In this document: positions 34,312-36,840 of the stretch, piece after piece | Layout of the letters: the number at the start of each line of letters is the position of its first letter | Position numbering within the stretch: the stretch's first letter is position 1 | Assembly (NCBI RefSeq): GCF_000373925.1 | Contig: NZ_KB892708.1 | Location: forward strand, 248,001 to 312,000 | DNA from: Actinopolymorpha alba DSM 45243 | GTDB taxonomy: Bacteria; Actinomycetota; Actinomycetes; Propionibacteriales; Actinopolymorphaceae | Direction of reading: 5' to 3' | Length of the DNA: 64,000 nt | Made by a program: the position numbers and the translations under genes | Notes under the pieces: model-generated | What the model was told of the DNA's origin: nothing | Seen by the model: the letters and a program-made list of their open reading frames with translations, nothing else | Database searches by the model: none

Positions 34312-34548
34312 CAGGGTCGCGCTCAGGTGACCGCTCGTGAACCCGGGCCCTGGCCTCACACCGGATGTCGCCGATATGGTCTTCCGGCGCGGCTCTCCAA
34401 ACGCAGCGAGAACGACGAGCCGCGTGGTCACGGTCTCGACCTCGGCCGCATGGTGCACCCCCACCGCGGCGGAGACCTGACCGTCCGACACGAGCATGGC
34501 GCGGTCTTCCATGCCTGGCTGCCCAAGACCGCGGAGGTGCGGGCATGA
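34312..34548 (+). pseudogene. Remnant of a CitA/DpiB-type sensor histidine kinase (C-terminal ATPase end, frameshifted)
   Basis: Only the end of the ATPase domain is left. The G1 box (PGPGLTPDVADMVFRRG) reads in the frame of position 34337, while the G2 box and tail (RGHGLDLGRMV, GGDLTVRHEHGAVFHAWLP) read in the frame of 34327. At least one frameshift between ~34395 and ~34415, and probably another in the GC run near 34348, separate them. The sensor, membrane and phosphoacceptor parts are absent. The last stop overlaps the response regulator ATG (ATGA), so the former operon structure is still visible. Not functional as a kinase. Confidence 0.75.
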
Positions 34549-35057
34549 TCCGGGTCCTCGTCGTCGACGACGACGTCATAGTCGCGCGCGTACACCGGGG
34601 GTTCGTCGAGAAGGTCCCCGGTTTCAGCGTCGTGGGGGAGGCGCGGACCGGCGCCGAGGCGCTGGCGGCCATACGCCGGGACCCGCCCGATCTCATCCTG
34701 CTCGACATCTATCTTCCCGACATGAGCGGCTTGGACGTTCTGGTCCGACTGCGCGAGATGCCGCGTTCGCCGTTCGACGTTCTCGTGATCACGGCGGCCA
34801 GGGACGTCGACACCGTGGCGGGCGCGCTGCGCGGCGGTGCGGTCAGCTACCTGGTCAAGCCGTTCGGGTTCGCCGTCCTGCGGGAGCGTCTGGAGCAGTA
34901 CGCCGCCGCCCGGCAGTCCCGTGAGTCCCGTCCGTCCTTCGGCGCGGACGACGGCGGCGTGGACAACGACGGCGGGGTCGGACAGGCGGGCATCGACCAC
35001 GCGTTCGCCACCTCGCGGACGAGCCCTCCGCGGCTACGGCCCGACGGGCCCGCCTGA
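34545..35057 (+). pseudogene. CitB/DctR-type response regulator lacking its DNA-binding domain
   Basis: 170 aa. The receiver domain is intact: VLVVDDDVIVARVHRGFVE, phosphoacceptor LLDIYLPDMSGLDV (~D55), VITAARD and the lysine in YLVKPFGF. Family members run ~220 aa or more and continue into a helix-turn-helix after a linker like the one seen here (QAGIDHAF..). This frame stops where that domain should begin. It either acts as a stand-alone receiver or, more likely given the broken kinase in front, is a decaying gene. Confidence 0.7.
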
Positions 35058-35328
35058 GCGACGGCACCGCTGGCCTGGCGGCTGATCATCCACCGCGGCG
35101 ATCTTCGATAATCGGCGAACCATCCGTTCTATGGAGGGCCTCTCCGCGTACGCTCGACAAAGAGCCTCAATCGCGCGGGGACTGGCCGCGGTCCGTGGGT
35201 CAGACCATCGACGACAGGGAGTCCGATGAGCCAGCAGTATCCGAAGCGAGGACACGCATGAGCGAGCGAATCGTCCAACACAGCGCTCTATGTGCCTCAT
35301 GCGTGCCCGCAGCGGAGCGAGGACACGC
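35058..35328 (+). other. dop leader region with two coupled small ORFs
   Basis: 271 nt between the receiver gene and dop. A possible -10 box TACGCT is at 35149-35154, giving a ~170-nt leader. The leader holds two short ORFs (35226-35261 and 35258-35332), a duplicated 20-nt start cassette and hairpins that can cover either the second small ORF start or the dop start. Confidence 0.55.
35226..35261 (+). CDS. Upstream small ORF 1 in dop leader (11 codons)
   Basis: Encodes [17 protein letters not shown] lies 4-5 nt before its ATG. Its TGA overlaps the ATG of small ORF 2 (ATGA). Likely regulatory rather than making a functional peptide. Confidence 0.4.
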
Positions 35329-35335
35329 ATGAGCG
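35245..35335 (+). repeat. Direct repeat of a start-signal cassette (20 bp, two copies)
   Basis: AGCGAGGACACGCATGAGCG is present at 35245-35264 and again at 35316-35335. Each copy includes a ribosome-binding-like GCGAGGA and an ATG. Between them CTCATGCGTG (35296-35305) is complementary to CACGCATGAG in both copies. Confidence 0.9.
35258..35332 (+). CDS. Upstream small ORF 2 in dop leader (24 codons)
   Basis: Starts with the ATG of the first cassette, encodes [17 protein letters not shown] then AAERGHA, and ends in a TGA overlapping the dop ATG (ATGA at 35329-35332). It has two cysteines separated by two residues. Translation of it would run through the hairpin that can mask the dop start. 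Expression is inferred only. Confidence 0.4.
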
Positions 35336-36840
35336 TTCACCGGGTGATGGGGATTGAGACCGAGTACGGCATTTCAGTCGCCGGGCAGCCCACGGTCAAC
35401 CCGATGCTCTCGTCGTCCCAGGTGGTCAATGCCTATGCGGGGAAGGTGATTCGTTCCCGCCGGGCGCGCTGGGACTTCGAGGAGGAGAATCCGCTCCGCG
35501 ACGCCCGCGGCTTCGACCTGGCCCGTGACCTCGCCGACGATAGCCAGCTCACCGACGAGGAGGTGGGCCTGGCCAACGCGATCCTGAGCAACGGCGCGCG
35601 GTTGTACGTCGACCACGCGCACCCGGAGTACTCCTCGCCGGAGGTGACGAACCCCCGCGACCTCGTGTTGTGGGACAAGGCGGGCGAGCGGGTCATGCTC
35701 GAGGCCTCGCGCCGGGCGGCCGAGCCACCCTTGTCGACCACGATCCTGCTCTACAAGAACAACACCGACAACAAGGGCGCATCGTACGGCTGCCACGAAA
35801 ACTACCTGATGGCGCGCTCGACGGCGTTCGCTGACATCGTTCGCAACCTCACGCCGTTCTTCGTGAGCCGCCAGGTGGTCTGTGGCGCGGGGCGGGTCGG
35901 GCTCGGGCAGGACGGCAGCCGGCACGGCTTCCAGATCAGCCAGCGGGCCGACTTCTTCGAGGTGGAGGTCGGCCTCGAGACCACCCTCAAGCGGCCCATC
36001 ATCAACACCCGCGACGAGCCGCACGCGGACGCCGACAAGTACCGTCGCCTGCACGTCATCATCGGTGACGCCAACCTCTCCGAGGTGGCGACGTACCTCA
36101 AGATGGGTACGACCGCGTTGGTGCTGGCGATGATCGAGGACGACTTCCTGACCGTCGACCTGAGTCTGGAGCACCCGGTCACCTCCCTGCACGAGGTGTC
36201 GCACGACCCGAGCCTCAAGCACCTGCTGACCCTCAAGAGCGGTCGCAAGCTGACCGCCATCCAGCTGCAGATGGAGTACCTCGAGAACGCCCGCAAGTAC
36301 GTCGAGGACCGTTACGGCACCGACGCCGACCCGCAGACCAAGGACGTGCTCGACCGCTGGGAGTCGGTGCTGTCCCGGCTGGAGTCCGATCCCATGTCCC
36401 TCAACCGCGAGCTGGACTGGGTGACCAAGCTGGCCGTCCTCCAGCAGTACCGCGAGCGGGACGGCCTCGACTGGAGTCACCCCAAGCTGCAGCTGGTCGA
36501 CCTGCAGTACGCCGACCTGCGGCCCGAGCGTGGGCTCTACCCGCGCTTCGTTGAGCGCGGACGGATGGAGCGGCTCCTCACCGAGGACCAGATCAACGCC
36601 GCGGTCCAGAACCCCCCGGAGGACACCCGCGCGTACTTCCGCGGCCGGTGCCTCGCGCAGTACGCCGAGCACGTGGCTGCCGCGTCGTGGGACTCGGTCA
36701 TCTTCGACCTGCCGGGCCATGAGTCTCTGCAACGGGTGCCGACCCTCGAGCCGTTGCGTGGGACCCGGGCCCACGTGGGCGAATTGCTCGACCGCTGTCG
36801 TACGGCGGAAGACCTGGTCAGGGCCATCACTGGCGGCTGA
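35329..36840 (+). CDS. dop: Deamidase/depupylase of Pup
   Basis: 503-aa member of the carboxylate-amine ligase fold. It deamidates the C-terminal Gln of Pup to Glu and removes Pup from substrates. N-terminal [10 protein letters not shown] (~8-17) carries the metal-binding glutamates. The segment [28 protein letters not shown] (~37-64, quoted in parts: [17 protein letters not shown]) contains the Dop-loop region absent from PafA. YGCHENYL and [11 protein letters not shown] are shared with PafA. The start at 35329 gives [10 protein letters not shown], as in homologues. Confidence 0.95.

Follow-up and report, generated by a model that had tools for sequence, protein, structure and literature searches.

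The repeats that come closest in kind to the one reported here are the mycobacterial interspersed repetitive units (MIRUs), which reportedly go back to Supply et al. 1997. According to PMC12548453, MIRUs appear mobile, insert at start codons and possess an internal ORF that couples with −4 (NTGA) spacing, and the MIRUs of the senX3–regX3 gap are, according to PMC4213456, restricted to M. leprae and the tuberculosis complex. Models of translational coupling through unfolding of RNA or through reinitiation are reviewed in PMC12548453, and PMC13255528 reports higher translation in E. coli with an engineered short upstream ORF whose stop lies by an internal ribosome-binding site. The arrangement described here has the same ingredients, i.e. 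a short ORF, a ribosome-binding site next to its stop and ribosomes that would be delivered to the next gene; the cases in PMC12548453 and PMC13255528 are, however, individual natural gene pairs or synthetic parts, whereas here we are dealing with a dispersed repeat. REP/REPIN sequences with their RAYT transposases (PMC3116915) and the pneumococcal BOX/RUP repeats (PMC3049150) are likewise small repeats with many copies per genome. In the open PubMed Central literature, to the extent that its texts were accessible, we found no description of the present repeat family outside mycobacteria. Here we show that the leader of dop in Actinopolymorpha alba contains this repeat, and we consider it probable that this leader consists of a full and a truncated copy of a MIRU-like, start-codon-invading element which is tolerable because of translational coupling.

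The window, i.e. the whole stretch of 64,000 nucleotides that was analysed (A. alba DSM 45243, contig NZ_KB892708.1, positions 248,001 to 312,000), contains by family profiles mpa/arc, a response regulator, dop, pup and pafA in that order; the response-regulator gene between mpa/arc and dop occupies 34365–35057, and the two ORFs between pup and pafA look like a prcB-like and a prcA-like gene. The gene for the depupylase/deamidase Dop (35329–36840, TIGR03688, 763.3 bits) and all features of its leader lie on the + strand. Upstream, a −10-like hexamer TACGCT (35149–35154), which may belong to the dop promoter, is kept in relatives, with the surrounding block CCGCGTACGCTCG common to the five congeners (G001–G005) and G007 and absent in G006. 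AGGGAG (35216–35221), the ancestral dop ribosome-binding site by comparison with the congeners, now stands 5' of small ORF 1 (35226–35261), which is a truncated repeat unit comprising the right end only (GAAGCGAGGACACGC at 35243–35257). It is followed by a complete 71-bp repeat unit (35258–35328), a short form without the 9-bp internal duplication, in which small ORF 2 begins (35258–35332). The initial annotation had described two small ORFs in series that lead up to dop, and this holds in the sequence: from small ORF 1 to small ORF 2 to dop, each stop lies in an ATGA that overlaps the next start.

Two further observations of that annotation were borne out. The cassette AGCGAGGACACGCATGAGCG is present at 35245–35264 and again, at the dop start, at 35316–35335, with no third site in the window at up to three mismatches and with two matches in 0 of 100 shuffles; the repeated stretch extends over 23 nt with one mismatch, at a spacing of 71 nt. 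In addition, CTCATGCGTG (35296–35305) is complementary both to 35253–35262, at the start of small ORF 2, and to 35324–35333 (CACGCATGAG, which contains the dop ATG), and the two alternative hairpins have similar predicted energies (−24.3 and −25.5 kcal/mol). In the second of these pairings, 35296–35305 and 35324–35333 form the left and right arms of the start-codon hairpin, which includes GAGGA (35319–35323), a Shine–Dalgarno-like motif that would serve dop. The leader is predicted to fold more stably than its shuffles (z −2.70; 1 of 200 shuffles as good). The choice between the two pairings exists because two copies of the right end of the repeat lie adjacent to each other; such competition arises in any tandem array, since each left arm there has a right end on either side with which it can pair.

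Within the family, this leader was seen only in A. alba. The comparison covered eight genomes of the family in all, i.e. seven besides A. alba, with five congeners among them, and conservation of the leader, on which the initial annotation had staked its proposal, was not seen: small ORFs upstream of dop were present in 0 of the 7. All five congeners have CGACGAGGAGT(C/T)(C/T)C immediately 5' of the dop ATG, i.e. a site such as CGACGAGGAGTCCC directly precedes ATGAG, and in the window small ORF 1 starts at the matching place (CGACAGGGAGTCCG, then ATGAGC). Therefore we read 35226–35328 as a 103-bp insertion, which in alignments and sequences is absent from 7 of 7 other family genomes, and dop as its host gene. 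In Kribbella and in many Nocardioides and Actinomadura records dop is apparently leaderless, with TAGGCT 6–7 nt before the ATG.

Other copies at dop were found among 80 named loci. In Nocardioides sp. YIM 152315, a mini-copy of 29 bp lies at dop (L050:3972–4001; MSERSERVRA by eye; 22.3 bits with our covariance model R1) and, in the same proteasome locus, a full copy precedes a prcB-like ORF (L050:5727–5812, 82.3 bits). Actinospica durhamensis has a divergent 77-bp variant at the dop start (L070:3924–4001, ORF MSELASEPMGTALMHASPQRAEGARA, 28.9 bits). From these separate copies in other lineages we conclude that dop starts, which are mostly ATGAG or ATGAC, are repeated targets. As an aside, a metagenome-assembled genome labelled Spirochaetaceae (L089) contains a dop 75% identical to the actinobacterial dop of the window, and this bin is probably mislabelled.

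Blastn with the insert against its own genome gave 59 matches, 58 of them with E below 1e-12 and the insert itself counted, and the cassette pattern with up to two mismatches gave 101 hits as compared with 16 for a reversed control. R1, which was built from 57 units and applied to 150 candidates per genome, matches the dop copy at 35258–35334 (83.9 bits, E 8.3e-20), a unit that has blastn relatives in this genome. In total R1 found 86 matches in A. alba, none in the five congeners or in G007 and one in G006; four other genomes of the order had 22, 18, 9 and 9, and four genomes of other families of the class had 28, 18, 23 and 8. Being short, dispersed and partly tandem (86 matches, with 26 tandem spacings of 71–119 bp), the repeat resembles MIRUs. 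It probably spread recently in the A. alba lineage. With two candidates scored per genome, blastn with a single unit detected it in 82 of 391 genomes of the order, A. alba included; the corresponding run on the class gave 14 of 394 genomes, half of them (7) from outside the order. The 52 own 80-bp units have the consensus ATGAGCGAGCGCAGCGAGCGAATCATTCAACACAGCGCCTTGAGTGCCTCATGCGCGCCCGGAGCGAAGCGAGGACGCGC, then ATGAGC; 80 bp is the typical form, with 71 bp at dop, and a typical unit comprises an ORF of 24–27 aa from the host start codon to the ATGA common with the host gene, together with a predicted hairpin.

Copies in other actinobacterial families (L320, L326, L329) have other peptides and stem sequences in the same ATGA layout, a divergence which, as far as the sequences tell, suggests several subfamilies. 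On a plasmid of the archaeon Halobaculum halophilum (L283:1501–1530), 25 bases are identical to the left end of the unit (R1 25.2 bits), which is possibly chance or possibly a wider family. Among plasmids there was no match to the dop leader; with the unit as query, one full-length match appeared in a Streptomyces record, besides the 25 bp in the Halobaculum record. Among phages, the dop leader had only one 23-bp match at E 0.05 and a consensus-like unit had none, and one exact pattern had 0 matches in viral contigs. The A. alba assembly consists of 127 contigs, two of which, C41 (L173) and C63 (L185), end within apparently the same tandem array and are probably one locus split by the assembler; the repeat family is also present in single-contig genomes.

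Copies of the repeat are situated at the start codons of numerous genes that are unrelated to each other. Around blastn and pattern hits in A. alba, 60 stretches were fetched in addition to the window copy (with chance-looking hits, one C119 region and copies first seen with R1 left out), and these contain 52 arrays with an intact in-frame unit, tandem units being merged and identical ones dropped. An ORF of at least 100 aa begins at the ATG of the last ATGA in 50 of the 51 decidable intact arrays: 47 of these ORFs have a GC3 of at least 0.8, and the others are those of L164 (770 aa, GC3 0.77), L161 (194 aa) and L179 (411 aa), the latter two taken from the array listing since their last units had been dropped as identical. 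The remaining two of the 52 arrays are L185, at a contig edge, and L191, which opens 11 codons only. Seven own rows stand outside this count. L148, an intact copy that was mis-anchored by the pattern, precedes a 350-aa ORF, and the out-of-frame copies L200 and L204 precede ORFs of 408 and 328 aa; the degenerate copies L154, L181, L184 and L201 have only 17, 32, 16 and 18 aa downstream.

The situation is similar in other genera, where 35 of 38 arrays precede an ORF of at least 100 aa; of the three exceptions, L260 has 84 aa downstream, and L211 and L269 are frame-broken but still mark ORF starts (501 and 152 aa, respectively). As a background, the window has 96 [AG]TGAGC hexamers, of which 25 are followed in frame by a GC3-rich ORF of 100 aa or longer that they open, with internal ones counted. 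The best-scoring profile in an NCBIfam scan of ten host proteins begins at residue 1–17 in 10 of 10, so these host starts are real. Eight of the hosts pass curated cut-offs (purC, proC, dxs, holB, hemA, the acetolactate synthase small subunit, a CE1759-family FMN reductase and a monocarboxylate transporter); the scores of the rbfA-like and queA-like hosts are below theirs. Host genes thus identified include ones that are essential in most bacteria. The first TGA also closes an upstream open frame of at least 100 codons (GC3 at least 0.8) in 28 of the 52 arrays from A. alba and in 23 of the 38 from other genera, which makes overlapping gene pairs frequent sites of the repeat; in MIRUs, too, the internal ORF often overlaps the stop of the upstream gene. 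REP/REPIN and BOX/RUP sequences form hairpins and are known mainly as extragenic; in contrast, start codons are the exact location of nearly all intact copies of the present repeat that we examined.

Empty sites in relatives allow the manner of entry to be read, and start-codon insertion is a further likeness to MIRUs. In congeners, the sites at purC, dxs, holB and proC are element-free in 5 of 5 seen each, that at queA in 1 of 1 and that at a gene for an FAD protein in 3 of 3. At purC, the filled site reads ATGAGCGAG...CGCGC-ATGAGCGAG, as compared with a single ATGAGCGAG in the congeners. At holB, the left copy is GTGACC, with ATGACC in 4 of 5 congeners, i.e. codon 2 of the host is seemingly kept on the left, and dxs starts with ATGGGT in the five congeners and with ATGAGC after the element in A. 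alba. From these three sites the element seems to enter just after [AG]TGA[GC]C, and, as far as can be read from the sequences, it seems to bring ATGAGC as its right end and sometimes to alter the first codons of its host. Host N-termini changed by the element are seen at two loci: codon 2 of Dxs is Ser in A. alba and Gly in the five congeners (L174), and the FAD protein starts MSKR like the preceding units, with SEQ or SEH in three congeners (L206). At six own loci (L149, L152, L154, L166, L171 and L187), upstream genes have 3' ends extended by the tail of the element (...KRGRA or ...ERGRA, with the stop in the ATGA), and insertion seems to have rewritten the C-termini of upstream genes too.

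The start of the small ORF takes the place of the former host start codon (ATG or GTG) and, in hosts that had a ribosome-binding site, lies downstream of that site; at the other end, its stop is part of an ATGA in which the host gene now starts. Among left-end matches from A. alba and other genera, with identical ones dropped, 106 of 115 are in frame to the ATGA, the nine exceptions being L148 (mis-anchored), L259 (not the element), five fragments (one in L154, two each in L184 and L201) and the frame-broken L211 and L269. MIRUs show the same overlap of internal ORF and downstream start, there as NTGA and here as ATGA in these 106 of 115. The own tandem spacings of 71, 74, 80 and 119 bp are 2 mod 3 in 26 of 26 cases, as are the 77- and 53-bp units of MIRU04 reported in PMC2453075. 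Single-unit lengths of 63, 52 and 31 are out of frame, and two entries of 67 (L148, L198) are mis-anchored, with true ORFs in frame. Within the ORF, the ratio of nonsynonymous to synonymous rates is 0.18 in A. alba and 0.26 in other genera for codons 2–12, 0.93 and 0.72, respectively, for codons 13–16, and about 0.7 for codons 17–26.

Columns 48–57 of the unit pair with columns 76–85, the latter containing the host ATG, which pairs with CTCAT inside the small ORF. In 57 distinct units, 95.6% of cells pair as compared with 92.5% in shuffles, both sides have changed in 15 cells (shuffle mean 2.6), and the covariation score reaches 0.161 (shuffles 0.107), none of these values being reached in 500 shuffles, figures which include a weaker 4-bp helix (35–38/44–47, 91.7% paired) and in which related sequences can beat such shuffles without structure, as covariation here counts sequences and not events. 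Two other measures show no excess, i.e. pairs with a double change (3 against 1.7 in shuffles; 77 of 500) and further pair types (12 against 10.6; 78 of 500). A slide of the alignment by −1 gives 16 double-change cells, with only 15.2% of cells paired. RNAalifold adds the pair 59:74, in which both sides are changed in 18 of the 57 units. In 35 distinct units from other genera, variable pairs are kept at 0.977 as compared with a shuffle maximum of 0.909 (0 of 5000), and in the 36 own units alone covariation is not beyond shuffles (1200 of 5000 as high). Pair 55:78 is a G–G mismatch in 8 of 71 units, and the dop copy has, by eye, T–A at pair 56:77 in place of the consensus C–G.

An uninterrupted stem of at least 10 bp that ends on ATGAG is found in 75 of 103 units, as compared with 1 of 264 ATGAG sites of the named loci, and 28 of the 103 units are without it. 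Even among ten remote variants (the mis-anchored L316 and L318 left out), stems of differing sequence cover ATGAG in L317 (12 bp), L327 (14 bp) and L320 (14 bp), shorter ones of 7–8 bp still do so in L326, L328, L329, L282 and L070, and L319 (4 bp) and L284 (2 bp) are without the hairpin stem. Covariation and compensatory changes across genera thus support a hairpin inside the unit as a predicted structure. Rfam gave no match for the window at the gathering threshold, nor for L155 2400–2800 at E up to 1.

In the preferred reading, ribosomes would enter at the old site of the host and translate the small ORF, this translation would melt the hairpin, and the ribosomes would stop at the TGA, whereupon the host gene would be started by unfolding or reinitiation. 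Such coupling would keep the host gene expressed, and the element could therefore sit in essential genes. At dop, the truncated copy would add a second step to this relay, with no sign of specific regulation. The suggestion of the initial annotation that passing ribosomes open a dop-masking hairpin is thus plausible in its coupling part, given the ATGA geometry and the compensatory changes across the family.

The hairpin could, however, owe its conservation to DNA rather than RNA. A non-autonomous single-stranded-DNA element of the REP or IS200/IS605-like type, for which the hairpin would be required in movement only, might combine target choice and selection to end up at starts, with coupling as a mere by-product, and the covariation could then come from a function of single-stranded DNA in transposition. 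Insertion just after [AG]TGA[GC]C with a right end in ATGAGC resembles the pattern of REP and IS200/IS605-like elements, and a direct repeat, GAGCGNAGCGAG, lies, by eye, near both ends of the unit. Against such an account, the frame is kept in 106 of 115 copies, the rate ratio in codons 2–12 is 0.18–0.26 and location at starts is far above the hexamer background, and we regard it as unlikely. No mobiliser was found, and there is no support for a Y1/RAYT transposase in this role: PF01797 has nine matches in A. alba (G000) and seven in the non-carrier G003, but none in the other 16 genomes tested, among them the seven other carriers (0 of 7), in which respect the repeat also differs from REP/RAYT systems.

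The initial annotation had proposed a device dedicated to dop, in which ribosomes on the small ORFs would switch competing hairpins and thereby control the deamidation of Pup and depupylation. The geometry, the near-equal hairpin energies and the copies at dop in two other lineages would suit it. It is nevertheless very improbable, since the leader insertion is absent in 7 of 7 other family genomes, the same unit stands before dozens of unrelated genes all over the genome, and any two units in tandem would give rise to the alternative pairing. We have therefore rejected a dop-specific regulatory relay on the family comparison and the genome-wide copies.

It is still harder to believe that the peptides of the small ORFs (MSERSER...) form a functional family and that the repeat spreads a small protein. 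Variation in codons 2–12 is indeed mostly synonymous per site (0.18 in A. alba, 0.26 in other genera), but codons 13–16 vary freely, codons 17–26 are at about 0.7, searches of Pfam and NCBIfam at E up to 1 gave no match to the peptide, and the C-termini differ in copies from other families. An assembly artefact or chance repeat, for which one might invoke the 127 contigs and the ends of C41 and C63 inside a tandem array, is practically inconceivable, since the flanks differ among the 86 matches and single-contig genomes contain the repeat family as well.

With a start-codon-invading, coupling-tolerated repeat as the most probable explanation, its relation to MIRUs can be specified. A sequence taken as the MIRU core is present in eight genomes of a single genus among the 394 of the class and has 0 matches in A. 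alba; of 16 distinct arrays with this core, 12 have an ORF of at least 100 aa that starts at an NTGA immediately downstream of it. Conversely, R1 has 0 matches in three MIRU-core genomes (G556, G703, G669) and none in six MIRU-core loci, and it has 8 matches in a genome (f7 g70) from the family to which the MIRU-core genomes belong. The R1 nulls in MIRU-core genomes and loci thus do not support membership among the mycobacterial MIRUs by sequence. Sequence and peptide are different, with only GAGCGNAGCGA in common by eye; the hairpin of the present repeat includes the host ATG; some MIRU-core arrays have spacings of 51 or 52 bp that break the frame, whereas the own tandem spacings are all 2 mod 3; and A. 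alba and most carriers found belong to the order of Kribbella and Nocardioides, with further ones in other actinobacterial families. Thus, with a shared layout and no R1 match, the repeat is MIRU-like in kind but not a MIRU by sequence. A more far-reaching idea, to which we give little credence at present, is a broad class of start-codon-seeking mobile elements, with the present repeat and MIRUs both among its members, that would move in actinobacteria by an undescribed route recognising translation starts themselves and not merely a DNA hexamer, and would pay for their place in every gene entered with a new ribosome-binding site and a coupling hairpin.

Overall, our data suggest that the MIRU way of life, in which a repeat slips in behind a start codon and the gene is not silenced, extends beyond the mycobacteria. 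Dozens of natural pairs of genes with and without the element, some of them essential, and with a start-codon hairpin that covaries, are thus at hand for tests of translational coupling. Furthermore, there is a warning in these findings: where the leader of an actinobacterial gene contains small ORFs and hairpins, these may stem from the insertion of a repeat and not be gene-specific regulators, and such repeats can rewrite the N-termini of the proteins whose genes they enter.
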